Shown here: in pieces, positions 24,907-51,714 of the stretch
How the letters are laid out: every line of letters begins with the position of its first letter
How positions within the stretch are numbered: position 1 is the stretch's first letter
NCBI RefSeq assembly: GCF_000025225.2
Contig: NC_013895.2
Location: 1,736,001 to 1,800,000, forward strand
Length of the DNA: 64,000 nt
Direction of reading: 5' to 3'
DNA from: Mageeibacillus indolicus UPII9-5
Lineage (GTDB): Bacteria > Bacillota > Clostridia > Saccharofermentanales > Fastidiosipilaceae
The notes under the pieces: model-generated
What the model was told of the DNA's origin: nothing
What the model saw: only the letters and a program-made list of their open reading frames with translations
The model's database searches: none
Made by a program: the position numbers and the translations under genes

Positions 24907-24908
24907 GG

Positions 24909-35410: not shown

Positions 35411-35507
35411 TTTCATCTCCTATTGATAACTATTATCAGTGTCACTTTAGCATAAATTTTACGTTTATTCAATTTTATATACTATTTAATAGGACTTTTA
35501 CTTATTC

Positions 35508-35672: not shown

Positions 35673-35835
35673 TTGATTTCCTCCTTGAACTGAAATTGAA
35701 AAGTAGATTTTTGGGAAATATTGATACTTTTCTCCTTGTATGGGAAACTTCATCTCTCATAAATGCCAAAATATCATCTTGCTCTGATAAGTATCCAAAA
35801 AGAAATACACCATACATTCTAACTTGGTCACCTTT

Positions 35836-36835: not shown

Positions 36836-37024
36836 TGCATAAAAATGCTTACCAAACGAGACCCTATCTCCGTGATCGAAATAAACGGGAGGTGTTAAAA
36901 CCATATTCAGTTTTATTGACCATACGAATTCCTCATTTCAATTCATCAACTTGTAATAAAATATCATTCTGCGTAGATTATGAAGAGACACGCAGTTTAG
37001 ATATGAAAAGGAAAATGCACCCAG

Positions 37025-37063
37025 CTAATCAGCCCTTGACATCAATACAACGCTCTCGACGGG
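37025..37063 (-). repeat. rlmD 3'-end copy (PVESVVLMSRAD-stop)
   Basis: Thirteen codons including TAG read P-V-E-S-V-V-L-M-S-R-A-D-stop, against H-V-E-S-V-V-L-M-S-R-V-D-stop at the native rlmD end. GCTGGGTGCATTTT follows, as after other copies. Confidence 0.85.
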
Positions 37064-37187
37064 GATTAAGACTACCCTGATGATAACCCTACATCAAGAA
37101 CTTGGTCTTAACGCTCGTTGCAGGGGGGAAGTGGGGAATGTCGTTGGATGGAAAAAGTCTAAGGCACTGCAAACTGGAATTTGTCGC
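37064..37187. other. Short gap at the module boundary
   Basis: No ORF on the minus strand and no hairpin repeat. It separates the rlmD-tail copy from the GNAT gene. Confidence 0.4.
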
Positions 37188-37718
37188 TTATTTCCATTCT
37201 TGGCTAAGGATTCGCATCATTATAAAATCGCTGTACTCATCGTTATAATAATATGCCTCTTCTAAAATACCTTCCTGCTTGAAACCGATTTTCTTGTAGA
37301 ATTCCAGTGCATCTGTATTCAACCCTACCACGCCAATCGAGACCCGATGCATCTCATACTCATGAAATGCCATGTCCAACATGATGCGGATTGCTTCCGA
37401 ACCATATCCTTTATGCTGCATTTCAGGGTCTGGAATAATAATCGTCAGATCGGTTTGGTGCCACGCGGGAAACATACGGAGCAAACCGGTCTCGCCAATA
37501 ATATTACCGTCAAGATCAGTAATCGTAAACCAAACCGAGTCTTCCGATTTGTGGCTGACGTTAATAGTTCTTTTCTCCTCTTCTTCATCGGTTGTCTTCT
37601 CAAATCCGCATTGAAACATAACCTGTGGCTGATTAAACCAATAGGCGAAAAACGGAGCGTCTTCTTCTCTTTGCCTGCGCAGTATAATCTTTTTTCCTCT
37701 TATTTCTTCATGCTTCAT
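37188..37718 (-). CDS. RimJ/RimL-type GNAT acetyltransferase
   Basis: 176 residues from ATG 37718 (MKHEEIRGKKIILRRQREED), preceded by AAGG; the ORF runs 51 codons further upstream into the TfoX remnant, which is unlikely to be translated as one protein. The acetyl-CoA motif is MQHKGYGSEAIRIM, followed by IGVVGLNTDALEFYKKIGFKQEG. Cotranscribed with, or read through from, the broken TfoX gene. Substrate unknown. Confidence 0.8.
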   Translation of the reverse strand: MKHEEIRGKKIILRRQREEDAPFFAYWFNQPQVMFQCGFEKTTDEEEEKRTINVSHKSEDSVWFTITDLDGNIIGETGLLRMFPAWHQTDLTIIIPDPEMQHKGYGSEAIRIMLDMAFHEYEMHRVSIGVVGLNTDALEFYKKIGFKQEGILEEAYYYNDEYSDFIMMRILSQEWK

Positions 37719-37801
37719 ATGGCCTTGCAGTCCTATCTTTTGTCCCGATAAATTCTGATTTAACACTATCATACTTTCATCACGTAAATCCATCAACAGC
37801 C

Positions 37802-38128
37802 TCATCCTCCACGTCTTTTCTTCTTTTTCGGCTTTGGCAATTCCTCGTACATCGCCAACAGCAAGCCACATAGTTTCTCCCTGTTATCAACTTCCTCAAC
37901 CAGCAGCATTTCCTTTGCCCCGGTGTAAGGAAGTTCAAACTTCGGACAACTCATATATGAGACCGCGGATGGGACGGGCTTTACAAGTAGTCTGTCATCA
38001 TAAATGCCGCCGATGATTTTTCCTCGGTAATATAAAATGGACTCTCCCATCATTGCGCGATAGGAAATATCCTCTAAACCAGATAGCTGTTCTAATATGT
38101 AATCGAGATAATATTTGCTTTATGCCAT
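37802..38128 (-). pseudogene. TfoX/Sxy N-terminal-domain protein with nonsense codon 3
   Basis: From a well-placed GGGAGGA and ATG at 38128 the frame reads M-A-stop-S-K-Y-Y-L-D-Y-I-L-E-Q-L-S-G-L-E-D-I-S, then continues open as MMGESILYYRGKIIGGIYDDRLLVK, the TfoX N-terminal domain. The TAA at 38120-38122 is the only defect. Restart at ATGATG (38053) would lose the first helix. Confidence 0.75.
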
Positions 38129-38330
38129 AACTCTTCCTCCCGTCTCACATACCGAAGCTCTATATCATACCCCAGAGCTTCCATCATTTTGACAAGCGTG
38201 TTGTTGACGATGGTTTCTTTGTTTGCGGATCACCAGGTCATAGGGAGCGGATGTTTCGATTTCCTTTGCCAGCCTATCCAGGGTGATTCCGGATTCAATA
38301 CATTTCGTTTTTATGTCTAGGCTTTTCTTA
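38129..38330 (-). pseudogene. XRE-type regulator remnant
   Basis: Pieces KCIESGITLDRLAKEIETSA and, in another frame, TIVNNTLVKMMEALGYDIELRYVRREEE are the start and end of a small helix-turn-helix protein with a frameshift and deletion between. It overlaps the TfoX start and was probably its operon partner. Confidence 0.55.
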
Positions 38331-38363
38331 GAAATACCTTGATTTCAAGCCTTTTTATACAGT

Positions 38364-38405
38364 TTAGTCATTCACCCTTGACATCAATACAACACTCTCG
38401 ACGTG
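38364..38405 (-). repeat. rlmD 3'-end copy (HVESVVLMSRVND-stop)
   Basis: Reads H-V-E-S-V-V-L-M-S-R-V-N-D-stop. Going upstream, the same frame stays open as H-P-V-S-I-V-C-T-Q-K-S-V-A-I-L-G-V-L-S-I to a TAA inside the hairpin repeat at 38470-38500. Confidence 0.85.
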
Positions 38406-38431
38406 GATTGAGAGAACTCCTAGTATTGCTA

Positions 38432-38500
38432 CACTTTTTTGAGTGCACACTATGGATACCGGGTGCACTTTTTAACGATAGCATAAGGTTATCGCTAAAA
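38432..38500. repeat. Island hairpin repeat R, copy 4
   Basis: TTGAGTGCACACTATGGATA and GGGTGCAC flank a hairpin TTTTAACGATA / TATCGCTAAAA (one mismatch). The hairpin ends 65 bases from the rlmD-tail copy on its left. Confidence 0.8.
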
Positions 38501-38528
38501 GGTATTACCTCGACAAACTGGGATCTGT

Positions 38529-39152
38529 TTACTTACAGTATTCCTCTACTTTATATTCATACTTTTTTAAAAGTTCTCGTGAGTAAACTTTTTCACTCTT
38601 TGATTCTCTAACTTCTTTCCAGAGAATAGCTGCAACTTTTAACTTATTAGAATAACAATCGCTAAATTCATCTAAACAAAAGTCTTTTAGAAACTTATTC
38701 CATTGACAAGCCGAACTATCATACTTAGCATAATCCGACTCACCATAATATATTTTAATCATATCTTGAATAGTGAATTTTATATCTTTATCCCTTTTTA
38801 CTTTTCGCCAAGCCGTTGCCATATCAGCACTAAATTTAAACGGACTAATACCTGTTACAGCTGAAAAATAATCTCGAAATTTTTGGTTAAATGAAAAACC
38901 GCATTTAAGTAATGGTGTCTCCAAGGTTATAACTTCGGACTGATTTTTATTTCCTCTACTCATACTCAAAAATTTTTCTACTCTATTTCCCCTAAAATAT
39001 TGTTCGATAATATAGTTCAATTCTTGCTTCGTACATCTATACTCTAATCCAAGAGACTTACAAATTTGTGAAAGTTCTTCTCGATACCAATAGTATTTGT
39101 TAAATTCTTCAAATGATTTTATATCTCTAAAATCAGGTCTTTTTTCTTTCAT
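38529..39152 (-). CDS. SAP-like domain protein
   Basis: 207 residues. The N-terminal FEEFNKYYWYREELSQICKSLGLEYRCTKQELNYIIEQYF resembles a SAP-type helical DNA-binding motif. The middle part, PLLKCGFSFNQKFRDYFS...F.ADMATAWRKVKR, is shared with the paralogue at 40956-41574. AAGG precedes ATG. Downstream of Fic on the same strand; a toxin-antitoxin-like link to Fic is possible but unproved. Reminiscent of DUF6434/SAP-type proteins found singly in Bacillota. Confidence 0.65.
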   Translation of the reverse strand: MKEKRPDFRDIKSFEEFNKYYWYREELSQICKSLGLEYRCTKQELNYIIEQYFRGNRVEKFLSMSRGNKNQSEVITLETPLLKCGFSFNQKFRDYFSAVTGISPFKFSADMATAWRKVKRDKDIKFTIQDMIKIYYGESDYAKYDSSACQWNKFLKDFCLDEFSDCYSNKLKVAAILWKEVRESKSEKVYSRELLKKYEYKVEEYCK

Positions 39153-39216
39153 ATGGAGCCTTAATTAATTCTAATTTATCAGAACCTAAAACTTAACAGC
39201 CTCTTATTTTTCCGTC

Positions 39217-40281
39217 TCAGATGGCAGCATCGGATCTGACATAATGTGTTTTTCTGCCTGCCCCCAATCGTTTTAAAGTTCCATCCTCCACAAGTTTTTT
39301 TAAGGCTGATTCCACGGATGAGCTTCCAAGGCTCGGACATGCTATCATCGCTTCCTGCTTTGTAAATGTCCCGATTTTATTCCGAACAAATTCCTTTACG
39401 ATATTATATGATGTGCTCCTGACCCCGCTTTTTTCCGCAATAGTAACTCGCGCCTCAAATTCCCTGTAGCAGGCGAGTATTACACCCAGCATATATTTTA
39501 TAAAAGGCTTCGGATCGTTCTTTTCTTCATGCCACAGTTTGTCTGCATCTGCCAGAGCCTTGTAATACGACTCTTTTGTATCCGCAATAGCTTTTTCGAT
39601 GCTGATATACTGCCCGACCATATATCCGCTCCGATAAAGCAGGAGCAGCGTAAGAAGTCTGCTCATTCTTCCATTCCCATCATTGAATGGATGAATACAA
39701 AGAAAATCCAGTATAAAGCATGGTATCAGAATGAGGGGATGAACGATTTCCTTCTCAAGAGATTCCTGATAGCTCTCACATATATGCGTGACAGCATCCG
39801 GAGTTTCATATGGTTCCAGCGGCTTGAAAAGAACAATTTTCTTCCCATCGCCAAGAATCATGTCTATTTCATTTGGCGTAGTCTTAAAACTCCCGCCGTA
39901 TGTCAGGTTTGTAAACCGAAGCAGATCCCTGTGCATCTGCAGGATGCAATTTGGTCTTACCGGTATGGCATCATAATCTTCATGCACTAAAGATAAAACA
40001 TTCCGATAGCCGAGGATCTCCTCTTCATCACGATTTCTTGGAGTAGTCTTATCGTTCATCAGTTGTTTTAACCTTGGATTAGTCGTTACAATCCCTTCAA
40101 TACGGTTAGAACTTTCAGTACTCTGTATCCTGGCTATCTGGGTAAGGCGTTTAAGCTCCGTCGGTTTCTGCCTTGTAAATAATTCCTGCTTGCCTTTATA
40201 TTCTTGTATCTGTGAGACATATGACAGTATTTCATTATCCCATGTCCGGTCTTTGAGTATGGAGTAATCAAATTTTCTCAT
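39217..40281 (-). CDS. Class II Fic-domain AMPylase-like protein
   Basis: 354 residues with the full catalytic motif HPFNDGNGRMSR (about residues 197-208). An N-terminal inhibitory helix carries SNRIEG (S/TxxxEG), so this is a class II, self-inhibited Fic protein. A C-terminal winged-helix-like region (TFTKQEAMIACPSLGSSSVESALKKLVEDGTLKRL) follows. Fic proteins transfer AMP from ATP to protein hydroxyls. Its promoter lies in 40282-40380. Target unknown. Confidence 0.9.
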   Translation of the reverse strand: MRKFDYSILKDRTWDNEILSYVSQIQEYKGKQELFTRQKPTELKRLTQIARIQSTESSNRIEGIVTTNPRLKQLMNDKTTPRNRDEEEILGYRNVLSLVHEDYDAIPVRPNCILQMHRDLLRFTNLTYGGSFKTTPNEIDMILGDGKKIVLFKPLEPYETPDAVTHICESYQESLEKEIVHPLILIPCFILDFLCIHPFNDGNGRMSRLLTLLLLYRSGYMVGQYISIEKAIADTKESYYKALADADKLWHEEKNDPKPFIKYMLGVILACYREFEARVTIAEKSGVRSTSYNIVKEFVRNKIGTFTKQEAMIACPSLGSSSVESALKKLVEDGTLKRLGAGRKTHYVRSDAAI

Positions 40282-40383
40282 TGTCTTTTACTTTCTCCCA
40301 ATCACTTTTATCTTATCCCAATTATGTCAGCATTTTGGGAGAATATCAATTGCCTTGGGAGATTTTTTTCGCAAACGAAAAAA

Positions 40384-40410
40384 CACCCGGCTATAGCCGA
40401 GTGCCATTCA
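40384..40410 (-). terminator. Terminator after the serine recombinase fragment
   Basis: CACCCGGCTA / TAGCCGAGTG (40384-40403, one mismatch); the minus strand continues GTGTTTTTTCG. It ends the recombinase remnant's transcription unit. Confidence 0.75.
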
Positions 40411-40423
40411 TATCTGCATACCT

Positions 40424-40712
40424 TTATGTCTCCACATCAATCTCCAGCCCCGATTTAAATTTAACGAGTGAGTTTTTCATCATATACTGTTATCTTCTCG
40501 ATTAGCCTTCTGACCTGTGTTTCCGAGTACTCAGTAATTCCTTCCGTCTGGCCGTCCAGAAAAGAAGTGAGGTCATCAACCTTATCTTTAACTCTCTGGC
40601 GGGATGCCGCATCCGCATCCCCCATAAGCACCGTCTTCCAATTTTCTTTCAGGGCGGGGAGAACAGCATCTTTCCTTGACCAAGCAATATTATCGGAATA
40701 CCTTGATTTCAA
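40424..40712 (-). pseudogene. Large serine recombinase C-terminal fragment
   Basis: Reads SRQRVKDKVDDLTSFLDGQ, then ITEYSETQVRRLIEKITVYDEKLT, a typical C-terminal ending of large serine recombinases. An extra base breaks the last residues, which continue in the next frame as VKFKSGLEIDVET-stop at 40424. The upstream catalytic part is missing. It lies 17 bases from an rlmD-tail copy, the place where an element's integrase normally sits. Confidence 0.75.
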
Positions 40713-40728
40713 GGCTTTTCTGTACGCC

Positions 40729-40770
40729 TTAGTCCTTTACCCTAGACATCAAAACAACACTCTCAACGTG
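40729..40770 (-). repeat. rlmD 3'-end copy (HVESVVLMSRVKD-stop)
   Basis: Reads H-V-E-S-V-V-L-M-S-R-V-K-D-stop. Upstream in the same frame is F-I-H-S-V-D-S-R, partly matching the ATCCATAGTGT flank of the copy at 38364. Confidence 0.9.
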
Positions 40771-40807
40771 CCTGGAGTCAACACTATGGATAAAAAGTTC
40801 ATTTTTT

Positions 40808-40905
40808 CGTTTTCGCGAACATATCATTGACTTTTTTAATGTTTTCCTCGTATTGGTAAACATATCATAGGTTTTTTTATACTAGTACGTATTTGGAAAC
40901 ATATC
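40808..40905 (-). repeat. Three tandem D-M-F-x-x-T scars
   Basis: GATATGTT boxes at 40888-40905, 40849-40866 and 40808-40825 read D-M-F-P-N-T, D-M-F-T-N-T and D-M-F-A-K-T on the minus strand, at 39- and 41-bp intervals. The native rlmD codons at 50237-50254 read D-M-F-P-Q-T. The 20-odd bases after each box differ. Confidence 0.75.
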
Positions 40906-40955
40906 GAGTTTTATGTTTTTGATATATAATACACATTATATAATGTAGAATTTAC

Positions 40956-41574
40956 TCATTTACAATATCCTTTTATTTTATCTGCATATTTGCTTAAAAG
41001 CTCTTTTGAATATACTTTACTTTGGTTAGATTCTCTCACTTCGTTCCAAAGAATTGCAGCAACTTTCATCTTATTAGAAAATTTATCACTACGTTCATCT
41101 AAGTTAAAATCTTTTACAAACTGGTTCCATTGGTTAGTAGTATTATCATATTTTGCGTAATCAGAGTCTCCATTATATGCATCAAGCATATTTTTAATTG
41201 TAAAATTTTTGTCGTTCTTTCTTTTTACTTTTCGCCAAGCTTCTGCCATATTCGCATTAAATTTAAATGGCTTAATTCCAGTTTGCTCTGAAAAATAGTC
41301 TCTAAATTTTTGATTGAATGAAAATCCACATTCTAGTAATGGAGTATTTAATGTTATATTATCAGTTATCTTTTTATTTTTATTCCTTGAAGATTTTTTT
41401 TATTTTATTTCCCTTAAAATATTCTTCTATAATATAATTCAGTTCCTTTTTTGTTCCTCTATATTCTAATCCAAGAGACTTACAAACTTTTGATAACTCC
41501 TCTCGATACCAATAATATTTGTTGAATTCTTCAAATGATTTTATATCTTTAAATTCAGGTCTACTTTCTAACAT
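40956..41574 (-). pseudogene. SAP-like protein paralogue with frameshift at A8
   Basis: The 5' half (MLESRPEFKDIKSFEEFNKY, 41574-41380) and 3' half (to 40956) match the protein at 38529-39152 from end to end. The frame is lost in a run of eight A (minus strand, about 41395-41402), after GNKIKK, and resumes as SRNKNKKITDNITLN...ECGFSFNQKFRDYFSEQTG. Apart from this one-base shift the gene looks whole, so slippage could restore it. Confidence 0.75.
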
Positions 41575-41608
41575 ACACTTTCCCTCAATTATCTTTTTTT
41601 CTATTCGT

Positions 41609-41635
41609 TTGTCATCAATACCAGAGCCTCCGCCG
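41609..41635 (-). repeat. Direct repeat flanking a GNAT gene, left
   Basis: TTGTCATCAATAC...CCTCCGCCG matches 42269-42295 at 24 of 27 positions. On the minus strand it reads A-E-A-L-V-L-M-T-N-E-stop, comparable with V-E-S-V-V-L-M-S-R at the rlmD ends. Confidence 0.7.
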
Positions 41636-41684
41636 CAGCTTTCACATTAAACGAGTAAACACTAGGTATGTCTTATGACATGTT

Positions 41685-41741
41685 CGTATGCAGAAACATA
41701 TCCATGAACCTTTTAACAATTATCTCTGCCTATCGTTAAAA
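41685..41741. repeat. D-M-F-x-x-T scar with degraded hairpin R, copy 6
   Basis: Minus-strand 41702-41685 reads GATATGTTTCTGCATACG (D-M-F-L-H-T). Directly beside it, 41711-41741 holds TTTTAACAATTA...CTATCGTTAAAA, a worn copy of the hairpin repeat. Confidence 0.65.
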
Positions 41742-41768
41742 GGTTTCAAGCAAATAAACTTAGAGTTC

Positions 41769-42239
41769 TCACACTCCTAGATATTTAATATATATTTGAC
41801 ACGGATTCCACTCATCCCATAAAGTTGGAAAACATTCCAATTCTTTATATCCCATCGCGATATAAAAATGATTTGTAATATCATATTCTTTGTAGTGTCC
41901 CATCTGAACAGTTTTTACCTGTGAGTATGTGTAACCCATCTTCCTTGCCATAGCTTCGTATGCTTTGTTAAGTACCGAGCCAACTCCCATTCTATGGAAT
42001 TTCTTTTTTATACCCATCACAAAAATCTCTGCACAATCCTTGCTTGTTGCGTTTAACACAATAAACCCAACAAGTTTATCATTAATATAACAAGCAAGAA
42101 AAGGCTTTTCCTGTGAATCTTGAATATATTCTTCTGTACTTTCTGGCATTCCAAACCATTCTTGAAGATCATACAATACTTCTCTCGATACAGATTCCTT
42201 TTCTAGTTTATTCTCAATTTCTTTTACTTTTATATTCAA
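41769..42239 (-). CDS. GNAT acetyltransferase
   Basis: 156 residues from a TTG at 42239 (read MNIKVKEIENKLEKESV), 6 bases after GGAGG. An ATG further upstream (42278) lies inside the flanking direct repeat and gives a non-family N-terminus. Acetyl-CoA motif KKFHRMGVGSVLNKAYE; conserved EWFGMPESTEEYI and WDEWNPCQIYIKYLG ends. A single gene exactly bracketed by a 27-bp direct repeat and a hairpin copy. Substrate unknown. Confidence 0.8.
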   Translation of the reverse strand: MNIKVKEIENKLEKESVSREVLYDLQEWFGMPESTEEYIQDSQEKPFLACYINDKLVGFIVLNATSKDCAEIFVMGIKKKFHRMGVGSVLNKAYEAMARKMGYTYSQVKTVQMGHYKEYDITNHFYIAMGYKELECFPTLWDEWNPCQIYIKYLGV

Positions 42240-42268
42240 TCCAGTCCTCCACAAACTATATTTTATTC

Positions 42269-42295
42269 TTGTCATCAATACTATAACCTCCGCCG
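42269..42295 (-). repeat. Direct repeat flanking a GNAT gene, right
   Basis: Partner of 41609-41635. The minus strand reads A-E-V-I-V-L-M-T-R. It lies 30 bp upstream of the GNAT start. Confidence 0.7.
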
Positions 42296-42387
42296 TCGAA
42301 TCTTTTCAATCGAAGCTTCCTATTCGGTCGCTTCTCTTGGAGATTCTTGACATGAGACCTACCTCTGCTTCGCATCGATTAGCTTTG

Positions 42388-42530
42388 CTAATCGCGCGAT
42401 AGCAGGGTTAGAGCTTCAACGTTGATTGAGAGAACTCCGAGTATTTCTACACTTTTTTGAGTGCACACTATGGGTATTGGGTGCACTTTTTAACGATAGG
42501 AAAAGCTATCGTTAAAAGGTTTAAGACTCG
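42388..42530 (-). repeat. Hairpin repeat R copy 7 joined to a divergent rlmD-like end
   Basis: A perfect hairpin at 42488-42517 (same 12-bp arms as copy 1) is followed on the minus strand by an open frame K-V-H-P-I-P-I-V-C-T-Q-K-S-V-E-I-L-G-V, then L-S-I-N-V-E-A-L-T-L-L-S-R-D-stop. It parallels the composite at 38364-38500 residue by residue, with V-E-A-L-T-L-L-S-R-D in place of V-E-S-V-V-L-M-S-R. Confidence 0.75.
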
Positions 42531-42547
42531 CTTGACAGCGCGTTACA

Positions 42548-42700
42548 TTACAATTGTTCCAGTTGCGTATCCTGATCTCTTCTCGCGTAAATAACCGCGA
42601 GTATTTGGACTTCTCGTTTACTCTCATCAACACAAAAGTAAAGGTAATAATTTTTTACGCGTATTCTTCTAAAACCAAGTTCACACCACGGCTGCTCATC
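42548..42700 (-). pseudogene. RelE toxin 3' fragment
   Basis: DEQPWCELGFRRIRVKNYYLYF, then VDESKREVQILAVIYARRDQDTQLEQL and stop. This is the C-terminal half of a RelE toxin with its catalytic-region residues, but the N-terminal half is missing where it meets the antitoxin stop. Confidence 0.65.
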
Positions 42701-42992
42701 AACGTTCAAGCTCTTCAAAAACATCATCTATAGGATAACTATCACCACGAACTGCCTGATCATAACCTTTAGCCATCAACGCGTTAAACCTTTTCTCATC
42801 CATATCATCTTGCGCCGGAAGTGACTTTGGAATAGTAAGCGAAAATGGAATACCGTTATTAAGAATGATTTGACGATAAAACATGTCAATAGCAGTAGCC
42901 CTAGGGATTCCAATCGTTTCTAAAATCTGCTCCGCCTGCTGCTTAATATTTTCTTGTATTCTCACATTCACATTCGCTGTCTTAGTAACTGC
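42699..42992 (-). CDS. RelB/DinJ-type antitoxin
   Basis: 97 residues from ATG 42992 (MAVTKTANVNVRIQENIKQ) after GGAGG. Near-identical to the antitoxin at 30539-30853. It ends PIDDVFEELER, probably the native ending. The downstream toxin is truncated, so no functional pair remains. Conserved IDMFYRQIILNNGIPFSL marks the DinJ group. Confidence 0.85.
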   Translation of the reverse strand, partial: AVTKTANVNVRIQENIKQQAEQILETIGIPRATAIDMFYRQIILNNGIPFSLTIPKSLPAQDDMDEKRFNALMAKGYDQAVRGDSYPIDDVFEELER

Positions 42993-43082
42993 CATATCAA
43001 TCAACCTCCATATGAGTTTGAACATAAAAATGGCGGATAAAGGAAAGGAAATGAATTTACACCAAAGTGAGGGCTTGACCGT

Positions 43083-44525
43083 TTAAACCTCATTTTCCTC
43101 ATTATATTGCTGCAAATTACCTTCAAAACCAGTAATCTTTTCATTCTCGATAAGTAACAAAGAATCCGCTACATTGTTGATAAAGGACACATCATGCGTC
43201 ACGAAAAGCAAGGGTCTGTCGTAGCCTTGAAGCAGCTCTTCTAAGGCTTCTATGGCACGAATATCTAAAAAGTTAGTTGGCTCATCCATCACCAAATAAT
43301 TAAAGTTACCTGTTAGAAGCTTCGCCAATTTCACCTTGGCTTTTTCACCATCACTAAGCACATTCGCTTGCTTGAACACATCATTTGTTTTGAAACCTAG
43401 ACGAGCCAAGATGATTCTCGTCATTGACTGGTCATAGATTGAATAAGGTAATACGTTGTCCAGAATCGTTTTTGTATAGTCGAGTGTTTCTCCTAGCTGA
43501 CTATAGTAACCAATTCGTAAATTCGGATGTGTCCACGTTTCACCGTTAAGAATCATGTTGAGCAAAGTGGTTTTCCCTGAACCGTTGTCACCTAATAAGG
43601 CAACTTTATTTGTATTGTCTATCGTAAAATTGACATTCTTAAAAATCACCTTGCTATCAAAGCTCTTATTGAGATTTTCTGCCCTGATGAGTACCTTGGA
43701 ATGAATTTTTTCTCGCTCGTCCATATTGAGCTTGATGGCTGCATTTTGATATGGCTTACTCTTCACCTCTAGTTGATTTACTCTTTCTAAAGTGGCTTTT
43801 ACCTGTTTGTCGAGCTTCTTCTTATTTTGTTGCCCACCCATTTTATGCAGCCTAGCTTCTGAGTTACCCATCCTTTTGGGTGTGGTTTTTACTTTTGCTG
43901 ACTGCTGTTTTATTGCATTTGCAACCTGTAAAAGACGCTTCTTTTCTTTTACATAACTCTCATATTCCCTCTCAGCACACTTATACCTCTTTTCTCTTTC
44001 GCATAGATAAAACGAATAATCACCGCTATAAACCTCAATTTTCCCATTGACCAATTCGAAAATTTTCGTACAGGTTTGATTAATAAAATCTCGATCATGG
44101 GAGACAAGAATAAAACCCTTATTGCGAGAATAGAGCCGTTTAGCTAATAGCTTTCTTTGCTTAATGTCTAAATGTGATGTAGGCTCGTCAATAAGCAAAA
44201 ATGCTTTATTATCAACTAAAAGGTGCTCCAGTTTCAATCTTTGCTGCTCGCCTGGACTACTACTACAATTCTGCTGAAAACGACGCTGATATATAAAACC
44301 GAGTTCATCTTCTAAATTGTTGAGCAAATAACTAATCTCGTCGTTCATTTGAACTCGCCCCGCGTAGTCAGTATCAAGACTTGAAAGTATGCGTAAAAAG
44401 GTGGTTTTGCCTGTGCCGTTATCACCAATTAAACCAACCTTGTCACAAGCACCAATAGATAGATGATCAATCGCAAATAAAGTTCTTGCACCTACAACTT
44501 TTGTTAAATCATCAATACGTATCAT
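43083..44525 (-). CDS. ABC-F ribosomal protection protein
   Basis: 480 residues with two ATPase domains and no membrane part. First: GDNGTGKTT, SPGEQQRLKLEHL, LLIDEPTSHLD, SHDRDF. Second: GDNGSGKTT, LSDGEKAKVKLAKLL, VMDEPTNFLD, THDVSF. The basic inter-domain linker (PKRMGNSEARLHKMGGQQNKKKLD) reaches the ribosome in antibiotic-resistance ABC-F proteins. Vga/Lsa/Msr-like by layout; the drug class cannot be fixed by eye. AAGGAGG precedes ATG. A leader peptide and hairpins upstream predict antibiotic-inducible expression. Confidence 0.9.
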   Translation of the reverse strand: MIRIDDLTKVVGARTLFAIDHLSIGACDKVGLIGDNGTGKTTFLRILSSLDTDYAGRVQMNDEISYLLNNLEDELGFIYQRRFQQNCSSSPGEQQRLKLEHLLVDNKAFLLIDEPTSHLDIKQRKLLAKRLYSRNKGFILVSHDRDFINQTCTKIFELVNGKIEVYSGDYSFYLCEREKRYKCAEREYESYVKEKKRLLQVANAIKQQSAKVKTTPKRMGNSEARLHKMGGQQNKKKLDKQVKATLERVNQLEVKSKPYQNAAIKLNMDEREKIHSKVLIRAENLNKSFDSKVIFKNVNFTIDNTNKVALLGDNGSGKTTLLNMILNGETWTHPNLRIGYYSQLGETLDYTKTILDNVLPYSIYDQSMTRIILARLGFKTNDVFKQANVLSDGEKAKVKLAKLLTGNFNYLVMDEPTNFLDIRAIEALEELLQGYDRPLLFVTHDVSFINNVADSLLLIENEKITGFEGNLQQYNEENEV

Positions 44526-44545
44526 AAATCCTCCTTGAAAATACC

Positions 44546-44563
44546 GAGAGGATTTAACCTCTC
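44546..44563 (-). terminator. Attenuator-like hairpin in the ABC-F leader
   Basis: GAGAGG / CCTCTC with loop of six, followed on the minus strand by GGTATTTTC. It lies between the leader peptide stop and the ABC-F ribosome site. The U tract is weak, so it may act on translation instead. Confidence 0.5.
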
Positions 44564-44567
44564 TACA

Positions 44568-44597
44568 TTAGTTAGAACAGGATTTATTAATTACCAT
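44568..44597 (-). CDS. ABC-F leader peptide MVINKSCSN
   Basis: A nine-codon ORF with its own GGAGGT (44606-44611) 8 bases upstream. Codons for N-K-S (AATAAATCC) are complementary to the ABC-F ribosome site and start (GGATTTAT). Stalling of a drug-bound ribosome here would free the downstream site, as in known ABC-F and erm leaders. The peptide itself is not a known family. Confidence 0.65.
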   Translation of the reverse strand: MVINKSCSN

Positions 44598-44627
44598 CTT
44601 TTGATACCTCCGAAAATAATTGTCACT

Positions 44628-44633
44628 ATTATA
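44628..44633 (-). promoter_or_regulatory. ABC-F promoter -10 box
   Basis: TATAAT on the minus strand, 17 bases before the leader ribosome site. The -35 region (about 44651-44656) is weak. Confidence 0.55.
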
Positions 44634-44697
44634 CCATATACTCATATATAACTTAGTACCTCAACCAACTTAACTATCGTCTTACTTATTTCACAAA

Positions 44698-44760
44698 GCT
44701 GGGTGCAAAGTGGGGCACCTTTTAACGATAGGAAAAGCTATCGTTAAAAAGTTTAAGATT
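44698..44760. repeat. Island hairpin repeat R, copy 8
   Basis: GCTGGGTGCAAAGTGGGGCACC followed by the perfect hairpin at 44720-44749. The following GTTTAAGA.TGGCTTAATAGCTTGAT.TTTGAG matches copy 1 at 29265-29295 almost exactly. Confidence 0.85.
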
Positions 44761-44939
44761 GGCTTAATAGCTTGATTTTTGAGCATAAAAAACAGCCTAG
44801 AGAGGATTACCCCCCTAAGACAAAGTATTAGTATAGTTGATGCAATTTTTTTACCATATATGAACCCTAGTATAGAAATAATATTCTATTTTTCATATAA
44901 TATAGTAAAAGTAGTGGATAACGCACGAGGAGGTAATTT

Positions 44940-45758
44940 GTGAAGAAAAGATATATGTTGAGAAATATTTTTAAAACCAAATATAATTTCCATAATATTG
45001 TTTTAATCGTTTTCATTGGACTATTAGCAGGTTTTTTATCAGGATTGTTCGCTGTAGGTGGGGGAATTGTGATAGTTCCTGCATTAACTGTTTTTATGAA
45101 ATTTGATCAGCGTCATGCTACTGCTACTTCTCTTGTTGCCATAATTATAACGTCGCTTTGTGGAAGCATTGTTTACGGTTTAGACGGAAAAGTGTCATTT
45201 TTATCAGCATTTTTTCTAATAATAGGTTCAGTTTTCGGATCACAAATTGGGGTATATTTTTCACATATTTTGCCTAAAAAAATATTTCCTTGGTGTTTTA
45301 CACTTTTTGTATTACTAGTTATATGTTCTAGTCAAGTTTGGATTCCATTAAGAAATGTAGATTTTAATGTTAGTTTTTTAAAAGCTATATGTCTTATATT
45401 TATAGGCGTTTTTTCTGGTATTTTTTCAGGTATTTTAGGCGTTGGTGGCGGAGGAATTATAGTGCCATGCGTGCAACTTTTGCTCGGCATGGGAGACCTT
45501 ATGGCAAGAGGAACTGCTTTGCTTGTCACGCTTCCTACAGCTATAAGTGGTAGTATTGCTAATGCTCGTTACCATTATACTCATTTTACTGAAGGAATTA
45601 TTATCGGTATTTTTGCGACATTTACTGTAAAATTAGGCGCAATAATTGCGCACAGTATTTCACCTTTTATATGCAATATATTGTTTTGTATTTTTTTGTT
45701 CAGTGCATGCTTACGAATGATATTAAAAACAGGTGTTTTAGCTAAGAATAAGCGTTAA
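44940..45758 (+). CDS. TauE/SafE-family membrane permease
   Basis: 272 residues, eight predicted membrane segments in two related halves, each with a glycine-rich start: GLLAGFLSGLFAVGGGIVIVPAL (about 35-57) and FSGIFSGILGVGGGGIIVPC. This is the TauE/SafE (DUF81) signature; members export sulfite or sulfoacetate-like anions. Start is GTG after GAGGAGG. Isolated plus-strand gene between hairpin repeat copies. Substrate unknown. Confidence 0.9.
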   Translation: MKKRYMLRNIFKTKYNFHNIVLIVFIGLLAGFLSGLFAVGGGIVIVPALTVFMKFDQRHATATSLVAIIITSLCGSIVYGLDGKVSFLSAFFLIIGSVFGSQIGVYFSHILPKKIFPWCFTLFVLLVICSSQVWIPLRNVDFNVSFLKAICLIFIGVFSGIFSGILGVGGGGIIVPCVQLLLGMGDLMARGTALLVTLPTAISGSIANARYHYTHFTEGIIIGIFATFTVKLGAIIAHSISPFICNILFCIFLFSACLRMILKTGVLAKNKR

Positions 45759-45974
45759 ATATGCAAAGTCTTTGACTTTTATTTATTTGAAAAAATAGTT
45801 TTGAATATAAAAAGTTGGGCTTAGATTTAAGCCCCACGATATAGGAGAATGTTATAAAGTAACTTTTTACAATTATGCCATTTGAGTAACATCTCTTTTT
45901 GCTTGTATAAATTTTATTATCATGTTTTTTGCGTGATAAATAATTATGCAAACTATACTGTATATCCTCACTTC
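45759..45974. other. Gap with small hairpins
   Basis: AAAGTC-TTT-GACTTT at about 45764 may end the TauE transcript. GGGCTTA-GATT-TAAGCCC at about 45818 could terminate minus-strand transcription (followed there by AACTTTTTA). No gene seen. Confidence 0.4.
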
Positions 45975-46010
45975 ACAGCCTGGGTGCAAAGTGGGTGCAC
46001 CTTTTAACGT
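45975..46010. repeat. Island repeat R, truncated copy 9
   Basis: CACAGCCTGGGTGCAAAGTG and GGTGCACCTTTTAACG, then an abrupt switch into the 202-bp direct repeat. The hairpin's second half is missing. Confidence 0.7.
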
Positions 46011-46210
46011 TAACATCCTGTGCACTCGACCCTAAAGCGTAGACATGTTCCCTCATACAGCAAAATCGCACTCAAAAACCTCGAGAACCCGGCCTAAAGC
46101 CGCCACTCATTAAACCTTTTAACGATAGACTTCACTAAACCCTGCTACACAAGGGCAAAAATGCACCCACCTATTAAGCCCTTGACATCAATACGACAGT
46201 CTCGACGTGG
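46009..46210. repeat. 202-bp direct repeat, left copy
   Basis: Matches 50033-50233 along its length, with about 90 percent identity by eye. It starts GTTAACATCCTGTGCACTCGACC and ends with an rlmD 3'-end copy (46174-46209, HVETVVLMSRA-stop on the minus strand). It contains a half hairpin (TTTTAACGATAG, 46117-46128). On the plus strand it reads V-D-M-F-P-H-T-A-K (46039-46065). Confidence 0.9.
46174..46209 (-). repeat. rlmD 3'-end copy (HVETVVLMSRA-stop)
   Basis: Twelve codons including TAA. Upstream on the minus strand, within 130 bp, are two more scars: D-Q-F-P-R-T at 46257-46274 and D-L-F-P-R-T at 46318-46335. Confidence 0.9.
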
Positions 46211-46256
46211 CTCGACTGCTTCATCTTGATGTCGAGTGTGTAGCCAAATTCACGTT

Positions 46257-46335
46257 CGTACGCGGGAATTGGTCAAAGCGCATTTTTTGAGGATAACACA
46301 CCGATTTTACTCTTGTCCGTTCTCGGAAACAGGTC
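46257..46335 (-). repeat. Two D-x-F-P-R-T scars
   Basis: GACCAATTCCCGCGTACG (46257-46274) and GACCTGTTTCCGAGAACG (46318-46335), minus strand, each preceded by TT. They match the rlmD D-M-F-P-Q-T codons and lie upstream of the tail copy at 46174. Confidence 0.65.
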
Positions 46336-46441
46336 AAAGGCCATGTTCCTGCCTAATAATATGCAAACGCACAGATTTACCAACCGCCTCAAGGCTTCGC
46401 TCTGAGGTAATATGTCTGAAATCCCATCGCCTCAACTCGGC

Positions 46442-46657
46442 TCAGGCTTTATTTCCTCTGCCACCATGCTTTCCCTTGGTAACAATAAATAGTGCGATAC
46501 TGCCAATCGCGCCCACCGCACCTAATACGTCCTTTCTAATATTTGCGTTCCTTTCGCGTCTGCAATTATCACATAACTTGTGCTTATTCGTGCTTACAAG
46601 TTCGCATCCACACTTCTTGCAGTAACGAATTTCTGGACCTTTATTATTGCTCATCAT
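46442..46657 (-). CDS. Small zinc-ribbon membrane protein
   Basis: 71 residues from ATG 46657, 5 bases after GGAGG; a second ATG follows immediately. The N-terminus holds CKKCGCEL...LCDNCR, a CxxC-CxxC zinc ribbon, and a membrane segment (VLGAVGAIGSIALFIVT) follows. It overlaps the larger zinc-ribbon gene by 14 bases, so the two are cotranslated and probably interact. Unknown function. Confidence 0.7.
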   Translation of the reverse strand: MMSNNKGPEIRYCKKCGCELVSTNKHKLCDNCRRERNANIRKDVLGAVGAIGSIALFIVTKGKHGGRGNKA

Positions 46658-47777
46658 AATCACCTCCGGTATGTTCTGTTTCTACTGTCAACAGATTATG
46701 TACTGAATACTCAATTTGTGCCTTCGGATCAAAGGCTGTAATCCTCGCTGCAATATCGGTAAACTGATCAACTACTTCGATCCGCTTCTGAGAAGAATTC
46801 TCATTGAGCAACAATAATGTATCTCGCTCATTAAGTTTATTTTCCACTATGAAGGATTTGAATTCCTCTAAGCATTCCTTGCACGGTTCGTATTCTCCCA
46901 ACATTGCGTATCCTTCACACTCGGTCTGCACAGAGTTAGTAATGTAAACAAGTGCCTGAAATGCGTCAATTGCCTTCCTACTGACGTCTTTTTCTCCTTT
47001 GAATTCAAGCATCATTTGAAAATCAGACTTCTGGGAATGTTCGGTGATATGATACATATTCTGAGAAAAGTTCCGCATCAATACTCGCTTTGCATCTGTC
47101 GCACTATGTATAACATCCAGCATAGCCGCTTCTCTCAGCTTTGCATCCTGAATCAGCCTTGCCTGCATTAGTTTATCCCTTGCTCCTTCTGCCATAGCAA
47201 GACGATCATTCTGAAGCTCTACATGGATTTCTCTTATTGCATCAACGACATATTCTATTTCATCAAGAATCTGAGCCATTACCGCGTGCGTCGATAAATT
47301 GTTTAAGGACTGTATGAGATTAGGTGTCAAGGCCATGTCCTCAAGTCTAACCTGTTTAACAAATCCATCTGCGTTACGAATTGTTGGTAGTATTTCTCCC
47401 TGTTTATCAATGGTGAATCGATAGATTCCCTTATCTATTAAATCCTTCACATAGGAATCCATCTTAGCAACCATGATGTGATCCTTGTCTGCCATAGCTC
47501 CTATTACTTCTGCAATTGCAGGAAGCTTCACCTTGATATTTTCCCACTTACCAAAATACTGAATAAGACTTCTATTATCTTCATATGAGATAATGCTTAG
47601 TTCTCCTCGATTCGGCTGCCACTCTTCAATATCATATTCGAAGATTGGAACCATCTCGTATTTGTCCTGCTCACTGATTGGCCTCTTTGGATCGGCACTT
47701 TGAAATCCACAATGCGGGCACTTCGTAGCTTTATCTGATATTTTTGTCCCGCATTCCGGGCATAGTATTCTGCTCAT
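46644..47777 (-). CDS. Zinc-ribbon protein of unknown function
   Basis: 377 residues. N-terminal double zinc ribbon CPECGTKISDKATKCPHCGF (residues 6-25), then a helical, mostly soluble body with a possible coiled coil around residues 180-260 (DEIEYVVDAIREIHVELQNDRLAMAEGARDKL). No membrane segment, no enzyme motif seen. First gene of a two-gene unit bounded by the 202-bp direct repeats. I do not recognise the body; a stress or defence role would be a guess. Confidence 0.7.
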   Translation of the reverse strand: MSRILCPECGTKISDKATKCPHCGFQSADPKRPISEQDKYEMVPIFEYDIEEWQPNRGELSIISYEDNRSLIQYFGKWENIKVKLPAIAEVIGAMADKDHIMVAKMDSYVKDLIDKGIYRFTIDKQGEILPTIRNADGFVKQVRLEDMALTPNLIQSLNNLSTHAVMAQILDEIEYVVDAIREIHVELQNDRLAMAEGARDKLMQARLIQDAKLREAAMLDVIHSATDAKRVLMRNFSQNMYHITEHSQKSDFQMMLEFKGEKDVSRKAIDAFQALVYITNSVQTECEGYAMLGEYEPCKECLEEFKSFIVENKLNERDTLLLLNENSSQKRIEVVDQFTDIAARITAFDPKAQIEYSVHNLLTVETEHTGGDYDEQ

Positions 47778-47814
47778 TTATTCACGACCTTTTCTTTTTA
47801 TTTGATGTTTCATA

Positions 47815-48345
47815 AGAGGCCTTGTAATTTTTGCGAAAAGTTTCCTCTACCGGTCAGCCCCATAAATTCTTGCATTTCTTTCCGTCTGCGAGGAACAGAG
47901 CAAAATTGAATTAAATCTTGTATCGTGGCTTGCTCCTTATCTTGTTCCCTTATCCCGCTTATCAGGATCGGACTTTTTGATATATTCCTTATAAAGATCT
48001 TAATTCATCAAATATCATCTCGCCGTTATTTTCTGCCCATACATAAAGTCAATCCTTCACACATCTACATCAATCATTAATCTTCCAGTGACCATAACGC
48101 TTGCCACCAATGCGTTCTATGCGGCCAGAGTCTTTCATCTCATCCATTTTTCTTTGTAAAGAACGATATGGAATATTAAGTATCTTGACAAGTTATACCT
48201 GCGTAATCTTAGGATCATTTTGAATGACTTCTATTATCTTATCCACCAAAACATCATTCAAAACGCCACTTAAAACGTCATCTTGGCGTTTTAGCACTTT
48301 GGCTTATCTATAAGTGCGCTTTGAAGTGCCCTAAAATGCAGATGA
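47815..48345 (-). pseudogene. Remains of AlbA-type regulator 3' ends
   Basis: Two broken C-terminal pieces. At 48065-48340: LVDKIIEVIQNDPKITQV-stop-LVKILNIPYRSLQRKM followed by GRIERIGGKRYGHWKIND, a winged helix like that closing AlbA-type ATP-binding proteins. At 47820-47950: IQDLIQFCSVPRRRKEMQEF then GLTGRGNFSQKL, another such ending. Both lack the rest of the gene. Confidence 0.5.
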
Positions 48346-48357
48346 ATATATTATATC

Positions 48358-49800
48358 TCAATTCTTATAAATAACTTCCCAATAGCCGTTCTGACTTGTC
48401 CCGTGGCGTAGAATTACGGAATTCTTCTTTAGCTTATTCATATAATATTTCACAGTATTAACATCCCAGTTTAATTCATTCGCAATCTTTGCTTGTGTAT
48501 GGTCCGGATGCTTCAGTAATAGATTAACTAACGTCTTATCTCTTTCGCTCAGTTCAGCTTGCATAATACCTTGGGTAGTACCTTGGGTAGTACCTTGGGT
48601 AGTCGGTCCGACTGTAACCGTTGCCGCCTCAGAAAGAGGAATCACTGTCGTAAAAACATCTGCCTCTGTAAAGACAGGCTCTCCACCAGAATACATCTTC
48701 GTGTATTTATAGCTGTTGCGCATGCCGCTTCCAAGCTCATCAGCAAGTCCGATTTCTCGGAACATTTTTGCTATAGGCGGATTCTTTGCGAATGGCCTGA
48801 ATGTTTTCAGATTCAAGTTTCCGTGCCCATGTGCAAGATTTGCATTTTCTGTTGTAATCTTATCCCGTTCAATGACAAGCTTTGGTACATATCCGCTGGA
48901 AAAATCACGGTGCATCAACAAATTGGAGATAATCTCACGCAGGATTTTGTCTCTGGTGCTTACCCTTTGGATGCCATCCAATGTAAAAACGTCATTTAGA
49001 TGCTTCTTTCCAAATTCCATCAAACGATCGTAGCTTTCAATCAGGTTTGTGATCACCACATCCCTGTCATCATAACGATCGACATTGAACACTCTGAAAA
49101 TAGCGTCTGTCTTATGCTGAGGTAACACGGACATGATACGGTTATCCGTACCAAAGAGTAAGATTGCCGCAAGTGTTATACCTTCTTTGTTCGTTTCCGG
49201 ATCCTCAAGTATAAGCCCGCAACTTCTGAGCATCTCCTCATCCGTCATGTCAATCCACGGATGGTGCTCAGTATTCACTCTCGTCATTCTCCTTGCTCGA
49301 TCCATAAGATCATGACGAAGGCTCGAAATCGGGATGGCAGGGTAGACCTTATTCACAAAATAGGTGCTTTGCTTACGGGCATAAAGATTGAAAACCATGT
49401 CCGCATTATCTGTAATATCGATGTCAGACTCATTATTGCGGTCAAATATTCTGCCTGCATTACGATAAACGGTTTTTCCAACCGGGACATAGACATAAAG
49501 AACAATACGCCCATCGATCTCATATTCCTCTGTAGTCAAATAGAGTGGCGGATACATTTTGCTTTCATTGTTGATCGTTGTAACAAAATTTTTCTTCATC
49601 TGCTCAACGGAGTCTTTATCAACACCAAGAATCGTCCCGTTATCCTTCACGCCAAAGAAAATATGACCGCCATCCCGATTGGAAAAAGAACAAACAGTAT
49701 CATAGACATCCTTCGTAATATCTGTTGTTGATTTTTTGAATTCGACTGTCAGCCCCTCGCCCTGACGAATCAAGCTCATCAAATTTTCAGGGAGTATCAT
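48358..49800 (-). CDS. AlbA-domain ATP-binding regulator
   Basis: 480 residues from ATG 49800 after GGGGTGA. N-terminal AlbA_2 (Schlafen AAA-like) domain: EGLTVEFKKSTTDI...FSNRDGGHIFFGVKDNGTILGVD. Middle HATPase_c_4-type region: REIISNLLMHRDFSSG and GSGMRNSYKY. C-terminal winged helix: DHTQAKIANELNWDVNTVKYYMNKLKK. A TTQG repeat (three 12-bp units, 48568-48603) links the parts. Common in Bacteroidota and Bacillota accessory DNA; thought to regulate transcription, partner unknown. Confidence 0.85.
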   Translation of the reverse strand: MILPENLMSLIRQGEGLTVEFKKSTTDITKDVYDTVCSFSNRDGGHIFFGVKDNGTILGVDKDSVEQMKKNFVTTINNESKMYPPLYLTTEEYEIDGRIVLYVYVPVGKTVYRNAGRIFDRNNESDIDITDNADMVFNLYARKQSTYFVNKVYPAIPISSLRHDLMDRARRMTRVNTEHHPWIDMTDEEMLRSCGLILEDPETNKEGITLAAILLFGTDNRIMSVLPQHKTDAIFRVFNVDRYDDRDVVITNLIESYDRLMEFGKKHLNDVFTLDGIQRVSTRDKILREIISNLLMHRDFSSGYVPKLVIERDKITTENANLAHGHGNLNLKTFRPFAKNPPIAKMFREIGLADELGSGMRNSYKYTKMYSGGEPVFTEADVFTTVIPLSEAATVTVGPTTQGTTQGTTQGIMQAELSERDKTLVNLLLKHPDHTQAKIANELNWDVNTVKYYMNKLKKNSVILRHGTSQNGYWEVIYKN

Positions 49801-49822
49801 ATAACTCACCCCTTTCGATTAT

Positions 49823-50080
49823 TCACTTATCAATTCCATTAGGCAAAATGGAATCAACCTCGTTCTCCTTAAAAGTCTGTTCTTCTTCCTTTTGCAAAGC
49901 CTTCTGCGCAGCCCTGTAGCTTCTCTCATCAGTTGCAGGATAATTATTATTGACTTCTGAAACTTTATTACAAAGAACATCTCTCTTTTTTTGTATCTCA
50001 CTATCGTCAAGCACTTCAAAATCAACTAATTCGTTAACATCCTGTGCACTCGACCCCAGAGCGTTGATATCTTCCCTCAT
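49823..50080 (-). pseudogene. 3' remnant of an unrecognised gene
   Basis: 85 codons; the first 20 (REDINALGSSAQDVNELV) lie in the 202-bp repeat. The rest (DDSEIQKKRDVLCNKVSEV...DERSYRAAQKALQKEEEQTF) looks like the charged, helical tail of a larger protein, ending VDSILPNGIDK. No ribosome site at the first ATG. Compare the similar start at 14722. Confidence 0.4.
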
Positions 50081-50233
50081 ACAGCAAAATCACTCTCCAA
50101 GACCGCGAGAACCCGGCCTAAAGCCGCCACTCATTAAACCTTTTAACGATAGACTTCGCTAAACCCTGCTACACAAGGGCAAAAATGCACCCACCTAATC
50201 AACCCTAGACATCAATACGACACTCTCCACATG
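50033..50233. repeat. 202-bp direct repeat, right copy, joined to rlmD
   Basis: Partner of 46009-46210. Its right end is the true rlmD 3' end. The two copies bracket a 3.8-kb module with the zinc-ribbon pair and the AlbA gene. The plus strand reads V-D-I-F-P-H-T-A-K at 50063-50089. Confidence 0.9.
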
Positions 50234-51571
50234 TGGTGTTTGCGGGAACATATCAACCGGCTGTACATCGCCTGCATGATAGCCAGCCTTCAGCAACAGA
50301 GCCATATCCCTAGCCAAGGTCGCCGGATTACATGAAACATATACAATTTTTGCCGGCCGAACCGTCGACAAAGCCTCGATAACCTCAGTAGCCAAACCCT
50401 TACGTGGCGGGTCTACCACCACTACATCCGGAGCCAGCCCTTCAGCCACCCATTGCGGTATTACGGTTTCCGCTTTACCGCAGACAAATGAAGCATTATG
50501 TATACCATTAACCTCGGCATTACGCTCAGCCATTTCAATCGCCGCCGGCACAATCTCCACTCCATAAACAAATTTTGCCCGCCGCGCCAAATACAGCGAG
50601 ATCGTCCCTATACCACAATAAGCATCGATAACCGTTTCATTACCCGACAAACCGGCCACCTCAAGCACAGTCTGATAGAGCTTTTCTGCCTGTAAAGTAT
50701 TTACTTGTAAAAAGCTTTGCCAAGAAACCATGAAAGTCAGACCTCCGATTGTTTCCCGATAACAGTCACAACCATAAAGCACCCTACTTTCATGCCCCAA
50801 AATAACGTTAGTTGCCTGACAGTTTTTGTTCATTATCAGCCCAGTCAAATTGGGAATAGCCGAAACTATTTCCTGTGTAACATCTATTTCTTCCGGTAAA
50901 ATCGCTCCATTAACGACAAAAATCACCATTATTTCACCGGTATGGAATCCGACTCTTACCCCAATATGGCGAAGCAAACCCCTACCGGTTTTTTCATCAT
51001 AAGCCGTCCAGCCGTGACGATTAATCACTTGAAGTACGGTTTGAATTGTCCGATCAATAATAGGCAGTTGAATTTTGTAATCAGCTACAGGGATAAACTT
51101 ATGCGAGTTTTGGCGATAAAAACCGCTGCAAAGATGACCAATTTTCCCAGCAATCGGGACTAAAGCTTTGTTGCGATAATGCCATGGCTCTTCCATACCT
51201 AAAGTATCTCTTACCGATATATCTCTAAGCTCCGGGAATTTCCCCAAGGTCCTCCGCACTTGGTCCTGCTTAAAAGTAAGTTGATACTGATAATTCAGAT
51301 GGGCCAAAGCTAAAGTTCCATCTCTCAGTTCGGAACTAACCTGAGCGCGACGGTCGGAGGTTGTATAGCGTTCAACCACTTTGGCGAAAGCATAGTTTTT
51401 TAAAGGACGCACTATCCGGGCCCGTACTCTTTCGGGGGGTAAGGCATCAGGCAAAAATAGTGGATAGCCATTGACCTTGGCCACTCCCAGCCCTTCGTGT
51501 GTCAAATCCTCTATTATAACGTCCATTTCTTGATTTTTAACCGGAGAATACAGGGAATTTTTGTTCGCCAT
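50195..51571 (-). CDS. rlmD: 23S rRNA (uracil-C5)-methyltransferase, RlmD/RlmCD type
   Basis: 458 residues. TRAM RNA-binding domain about residues 12-70; SAM site VIDAYCGIGTISLYLARRA; DPPRKGL; catalytic Cys in YVSCNPATLARD; closing MFPQTPHVESVVLMSRVD. It methylates a uracil of 23S rRNA (m5U1939, possibly also m5U747). The Fe-S cysteines usually found before the catalytic domain (CxxxxxCGGC) are absent here: that region reads LRDGTLALAHLNYQYQL. The last codons are copied downstream at least four times. Conserved chromosomal gene, the right boundary of the island. Confidence 0.9.
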   Translation of the reverse strand: MANKNSLYSPVKNQEMDVIIEDLTHEGLGVAKVNGYPLFLPDALPPERVRARIVRPLKNYAFAKVVERYTTSDRRAQVSSELRDGTLALAHLNYQYQLTFKQDQVRRTLGKFPELRDISVRDTLGMEEPWHYRNKALVPIAGKIGHLCSGFYRQNSHKFIPVADYKIQLPIIDRTIQTVLQVINRHGWTAYDEKTGRGLLRHIGVRVGFHTGEIMVIFVVNGAILPEEIDVTQEIVSAIPNLTGLIMNKNCQATNVILGHESRVLYGCDCYRETIGGLTFMVSWQSFLQVNTLQAEKLYQTVLEVAGLSGNETVIDAYCGIGTISLYLARRAKFVYGVEIVPAAIEMAERNAEVNGIHNASFVCGKAETVIPQWVAEGLAPDVVVVDPPRKGLATEVIEALSTVRPAKIVYVSCNPATLARDMALLLKAGYHAGDVQPVDMFPQTPHVESVVLMSRVD

Positions 51572-51714
51572 AGTGCCATCCTTTGCTGCTAGTTGCTGTT
51601 GATTCGCTAATCCACAAATATATCTTTATTTTACACTACCTCTTCCTCATAAAACAGCCGCGAGTCGAGCCTTCGTTCCCGGCCAGGACAGCTGCCGCTA
51701 GTTCACCATCCAGC

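Follow-up and report, generated by a model that had tools for sequence, protein, structure and literature searches.

Introduction

In staphylococci, composite staphylococcal cassette chromosome (SCC) and pseudo-SCC elements are located at rlmH (orfX). There, serine recombinases act where an rRNA methyltransferase gene has its 3' end, which is regenerated by direct repeats; elements are arranged in tandem and some of them lack ccr. Phages and integrative and conjugative elements (ICEs) that use serine recombinases at the 3' end of rum/rumA/rlmD are also well known (PMC4288039, PMC4260502, PMC4701971, PMC12785378). In streptococci, cis-mobilizable elements (CIMEs) represent att-flanked modules without recombination genes, which are stacked at their target gene (PMC7563491).

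Here, the rlmD locus of Mageeibacillus indolicus UPII9-5 was analyzed in a stretch of 64,000 nt of NC_013895.2, called the window in the following; coordinates are window positions unless marked as genome positions. At least 10 short cassettes are stacked behind a repeated site at the end of rlmD. This is best explained, with a probability of roughly 75%, by an accretion array that resembles SCC and CIMEs and that serine-recombinase phages of the Phi-m46.1 type have assembled and mobilized in trans.

The rlmD gene end and its copies

The initial annotation had described repeated rlmD 3' ends on the minus strand. These are real: the 31-bp core of rlmD has five matches in the window at up to 6 substitutions and none in 30 Markov shuffles. 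The coordinates and the module lengths of 4.0, 5.4, 2.4, and 1.3 kb were likewise right, and so was the divergent copy at 42388, where a right arm is joined to a different core, one that is also present in a viral contig. The five cores were located by pattern search, the stub of the fifth by the site profile described below.

50195-51571, minus strand: rlmD, 23S rRNA m5U methyltransferase with TRAM and tRNA_U5-meth_tr domains, the anchor gene, ending in HVESVVLMSRVD and a stop codon
50203-50233, minus strand: native core within rlmD, 31 bp
46179-46209, minus strand: second core
40740-40770, minus strand: third core
38375-38405, minus strand: fourth core
37033-37063, minus strand: fifth core, plus a short left-arm stub at 37012-37032
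42388-42427, minus strand: divergent core NVEALTLLSRD-stop, its upstream end overlapping a right-arm match

In the whole genome, the core pattern has seven matches at up to 3 mismatches and the reversed pattern has none. The matches beyond the window, at genome 1,421,061 and 1,422,713, as well as a further divergent core at genome ~1,288,580, had been overlooked before. Since the core repeats the final codons of rlmD, the end of the gene would be restored at every insertion.

A conserved composite site

Each core forms the middle of a conserved composite site of ~354 bp, consisting of right arm (RA), core, and left arm (LA), and the flanks of separate cores resemble each other. In the direction of rlmD, interior boundaries run from the RA, which ends in GGAGTTCTCTCAATC, through the core into the LA, which starts with TGATTAGGTGGGTGCA. 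Inside the RA lies a palindrome, CCTTTTAACGATAG-n6-7-CTATCGTTAAAAGG, with a variable loop and a nearly invariant stem (49 distinct matches). The palindromes were counted in both directions because the scan read both strands, and the stem varies too little to provide a covariation test of the site structure.

With a profile built from 14 sites, all outside the window, 11 complete or incomplete sites were detected between 50249 and 14758 of the window; every one of them lies on the minus strand and thus in rlmD orientation. The array therefore covers ~36 kb inside the window; judged by DNA sharing, the island runs on to genome 1,732,814, which is 3.2 kb left of the window edge.

50032-50202, minus strand: LA after the rlmD core, profile score 207
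45975-46178, minus strand: full LA of the second site, profile score 255, ~90% identical to the site of Gardnerella phage vB_Gva_AB1 (AB1)
44707-44773, minus strand: core-less scar, RA fused to the LA end (site profile)
42416-42539, minus strand: RA at the divergent core, profile score 127
38406-38506, minus strand: RA of the fourth site, profile score 136 for 38374-38506
34071-34110, minus strand: core-less scar, decayed (site profile)
30438-30485, minus strand: RA fragment (site profile)
29219-29288, minus strand: core-less scar (site profile)
14758-14850, minus strand: LA fragment, the leftmost site piece of the window (site profile)

In the consensus site, the core is flanked by an exact direct repeat of 20 bp, CGTTAAAAAGTGCACCCACT, whose copies start at positions 47 and 319. 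At the scars at 44.7, 34.1, and 29.2 kb the core is gone, and the RA is joined directly to the end of the LA at this repeat. Judged from these junctions, some sites have lost their core by deletion between the repeats of both arms. Due to the core-less scars, the 5.4-kb "module" actually comprises at least three cassettes, namely TauE, ABC-F with RelB, and GNAT with SAP.

Occurrence in other genomes and phages

In Clostridia as a whole the composite site is rare: among 391 genomes, long matches to it were obtained only in G000 and G424, the rest being short core or hairpin matches; plasmid DNA searched with the composite site gave no matches. A genome of the same family but another genus (G008) harbors the site in several copies, plus recombinase genes. 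Its contigs C2 and C3 were considered as excised circles and not used as evidence, the junction lying inside a duplicated CadD gene, so that tandem duplication or assembly may account for them. In the contigs of this genome (L164, L167, L168, L169) a segment of 11.9 kb, bounded by two copies of CadD, is repeated, which may be a tandem duplication, a circle, or an assembly artefact. Diverged RA-like palindromes with SAP_new25-like genes are present in G562 and G412, of another genus (L228:9064-14377, L230:5909-9853), in G562 just downstream of rlmD; they may belong to a remoter lineage of this system.

The initial annotation had suggested looking in related genomes for a module alone at rlmD. 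One cassette does stand alone there, in Lachnospiraceae KA00044 (L078), where an LA, the ABC-F and RelB genes and an RA follow rlmD.

The composite site is also present in AB1, a phage that was induced by mitomycin C and whose circular form was checked by PCR (PMC7996455); its record holds core and LA together with cargo. At ~39025 the deposited AB1 genome (MW387018; L195:7081-7084) reads "NN", probably an unresolved hairpin or repeat. In IMG/VR, at least 17 stretches contain the 20-base RA word, with several sites in single records, and where contigs were compared with AB1, they shared 86-97% identity with the phage across 4-7 kb. The order in viral contigs is phage genes, a serine-recombinase triplet, RA-core-LA and then cassettes, sometimes with an rlmD homologue of actinobacterial type at the far end. 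The 80-kb record G564 carries at one end DUF3710, DUF3159 (both actinobacterial families), an rlmD homologue, core, LA, and cargo; near its other end lie phage genes, the recombinase triplet with intact recombinase domains, RA-core-LA, the GNAT + SAP cassette, Tet(M), and Tet(L). In L200 an rlmD homologue with the end HVESVVLMSKAD is followed by core and LA. In a Gardnerella-phage-like contig (L237:10483-14248), Tet(M) and Tet(L) come immediately after a GNAT + SAP cassette.

Within 1-50233 of the window, 16,377 bases match other taxa at ≥90%, and within 50234-64000 the number is 0; therefore, sharing ends at the rlmD core. Individual modules share 95-99% identity with cassettes of the site-bearing contigs; the shared stretches end at a core or arm or close to one, and the order of the modules is not the same. 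The match with G564 stops at the core start, 40770, and at the far end of the island the match with viral contig G565 breaks off at the beginning of the G565 core. In genome G329, the block homologous to 21783-29068 ends adjoining an RA. In G565, TauE and CadD are neighbors of a two-component system and the ABC permease, but in the window ~43 kb separate TauE from the ABC permease. Nearly identical cassettes next to phages of the unrelated Gardnerella suggest that phages carry them among vaginal bacteria that are only distantly related.

Recombinases

An insertion by serine recombinases at the rlmD end, as initially annotated, holds with respect to serial insertion, which is supported by recombinase genes adjoining rlmD cores in relatives (G008, G054, Blautia (L049), and Listeria costaricensis) and by the triplets of phage relatives. 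However, no serine-recombinase gene is left in this genome, which has no PF07508 or PF00239 match, and one core is adjoined by a remnant.

40464-40736, minus strand: large serine recombinase, C-terminal remnant (phmmer 1.5e-7; tblastn to recombinases)

In AB1 and its relatives, the triplet lies directly beside the RA, and its two large open reading frames (ORFs) have resolvase, recombinase, and zinc-ribbon domains; NCBIfam matches of the AB1 enzymes include CcrA/B/C, below cut-offs. The genome encodes three tyrosine recombinases, typed from neighboring ORFs as an element integrase by a relaxase-like gene, a XerC/D type, and a third enzyme with hsdS as its neighbor. They all lie away from the array, and all site-adjacent enzymes are serine recombinases.

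Cargo of the array

The array carries the following cargo.

49823-50080, minus strand: SLATT_4 / 2TM effector, C-terminal part of a truncated cargo, overlapping the LA match by 49 bp
48358-49809, minus strand: SLFN_AlbA_2 / winged-helix protein
46644-47777, minus strand: zinc-ribbon protein
44940-45758, plus strand: TauE/SafE permease cassette (DNA 44867-45990 96.8% identical to G565)
43083-44525, minus strand: ABC-F ribosomal-protection-like protein (43013-44730 98.8% identical to L078)
42699-43025, minus strand: RelB-type antitoxin, with a second copy at 30539-30862
40769-42429, minus strand: GNAT + SAP_new25 cassette, SAP gene frame-broken (99.0% over 1663 bp to G564)
39217-40281, minus strand: Fic/SoFic protein
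38529-39152, minus strand: SAP_new25 protein
37188-37871, minus strand: GNAT acetyltransferase
34799-36300, minus strand: methyltransferase, small ORF, and GNAT, with a GNAT copy ~92% identical at genome 1.288 Mb
21783-29068, minus strand: TetR, ABC exporters, and ECF-type transporter block (93.4% over 7.3 kb to G329)
18313-21465, minus strand: MkoC-like helicase, candidate defence gene
16649-17354, minus strand: DUF4097 cassette (97-98% to cassettes adjoining Gardnerella-phage relatives)
1-1373, plus strand: ABC-2 permease cargo, extending ~3.2 kb left of the window (95.2% to G565)

No transfer module was seen in the ORF lists, conjugation families not having been searched individually. The two RelB antitoxin units of the array (30539-31203 and 42640-43097) are ~89-94% identical to each other. 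At 3518-5107, four small paralogous ORFs stand in tandem, and the one tested (3853-4227) has no Pfam match. Outside the window, an ectopic AbiD cassette at genome 1421061-1422743 (L122:7062-8744) contains Abi_2/AbiD, flanked on either side by a core in direct orientation, with RA; it is distant from rlmD, lies upstream of a pyrB-like gene and is followed by a RelB fragment. In a second ectopic unit, at genome ~1288.07-1288.72 kb (L123:8072-8721), an RA palindrome is accompanied by the divergent core HVETVVVISHR and by a GNAT gene that shares ~92% identity with window 35836-36300.

Origin of the array

In the accretion array proposed here, a cassette consists of LA, cargo, and RA, and neighbors meet at RA-core-LA. 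In this reading, the arms are also the ends of temperate phages of the Phi-m46.1/AB1 type, with the triplet next to the RA, and the phage enzymes may act in trans on the array sites. A phage leaving the array could take neighboring cassettes with it and deposit them at rlmD of another host, and deletion of a core would lock neighboring cassettes together. Because the enzyme genes have been lost in this genome, the array is now non-autonomous. The gene order beside the phages would also be consistent with cis mobilization by the adjoining element. The initial annotation had suggested at least four integrations with trapped modules; serial insertion stands, but the array is ~4 times longer, has ~10 boundaries, and is made mostly of small exchangeable cassettes and not of whole ICEs. 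As to the sources, the comparative data point to phages and cross-phylum exchange. A wider model, which we put forward tentatively, is a phage-run platform resembling an integron: the triplets would excise, package, and insert cassettes at the rlmD site and so give vaginal Bacillota and Actinomycetota a common pool of resistance, toxin-antitoxin, and defence-type genes, and the deletion of cores would be a locking step inherent in the system.

Several points weigh against the proposed array. Trans action on cassettes is an inference, and no recombination was observed; one arm, or the two of them, is missing at several boundaries in the window, and the cores at 40740 and 38375 carry a different left arm, that of a second element family. 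The hosts of most viral contigs were deduced from phage similarity, the first AB1 site contains "NN", and AB1 DNA was amplified from filtered supernatant. Furthermore, homologous recombination between the arms would yield many of the same patterns. Exchange of this kind, which fits the long and highly conserved arms and core-less scars arising by repeat-mediated deletion, has to be taken seriously as an alternative for some of the cassette movement. That it was the main route after natural DNA uptake or transduction, the site-specific step having only founded the array, is rather unlikely, since some junctions lie exactly at the core edge without arms (40769/40770; L124 16814).

It is slightly less likely still that independent ICEs, integrative and mobilizable elements, and prophages decayed at rlmD and left small CIME deletion remnants, which no longer move as units. 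The absence of serine-recombinase genes from the genome, the recombinase scrap adjoining one core, and the two left-arm families would fit, and tandem CIMEs are frequent at other targets (PMC7563491). However, modules taken singly share 95-99% identity with cassettes of other families and phyla, where they stand in other orders, and one cassette occurs alone at rlmD in L078. Folded single-stranded sites used by a tyrosine integrase, as in integrons, would agree with the cassette layout and with a single-stranded fold of the site far stronger than that of shuffles (z -6.4). This fold is due to the inverted repeats and is therefore no evidence for such a mechanism; with the three tyrosine recombinases of the genome all away from the array, only serine recombinases adjoining the sites and no IntI-type integrase by the array, this reading was rejected as very improbable. 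Even more remote is gene duplication as the source of the rlmD fragments. The tails do read as rlmD codons, but similarity to rlmD ends at the core, the upstream flanks differ, the conserved arms are foreign, and the same site occurs in other taxa; a genome search yielded a single rlmD match. Duplication was therefore rejected as well.

Meaning and comparison with known systems

In a literature search covering few subscription journals, neither the composite site nor rlmD cassette arrays common to Gardnerella phages and Bacillota were found described. The principle is known; the conserved site, the cross-phylum cassette pool, and the core-deletion scars appear undescribed. If the proposed array is correct, it provides a concrete, sequence-defined path for genes across phyla at one human body site, explains how small modules arrive in recombinase-free genomes, and gives a short searchable site for mapping cassette arrays in metagenomes. 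The cargo includes Tet(M), Tet(L), the ABC-F ribosomal-protection-like protein, CadD, AbiD, Fic, and toxin-antitoxin genes.

Integrons share with this locus the small cassettes in an array and the long, foldable, conserved sites in one direction. In contrast, neither IntI nor attI is present here, the recombinases are serine and not tyrosine enzymes, and gene orientation within cassettes is not fixed, TauE being reversed. The Phi-m46.1-like prophages of S. pyogenes, with phiEr670 in Erysipelothrix, use the same rum/rumA/rlmD 3' end, and their 18-bp core spans the CACGTGGAGTGTGT codons. However, they are reported singly, without a recombinase-free cassette array at a conserved composite site, and their reported transfers stay within Firmicutes. 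Unlike in a Phi-m46.1/AB1-like prophage, no phage structural or lysis genes were recognized among the window ORFs examined. With the CIME-type accretion arrays the locus has in common tandem att-flanked modules at one target gene. It differs from the streptococcal CIMEs by ~10 boundaries with no autonomous element left within, by helper relatives that are phages and not ICEs, and by arms common to unrelated cargos.

The nearest working parallel to the rlmD array is composite SCC. There, the target is rlmH (orfX), with a different core, and the genome analyzed here contains no serine recombinase domain and hence no ccrA/B/C. In contrast to SCC, the rlmD system has long conserved arms, recombinases of tailed phages, and cassettes shared across phyla.

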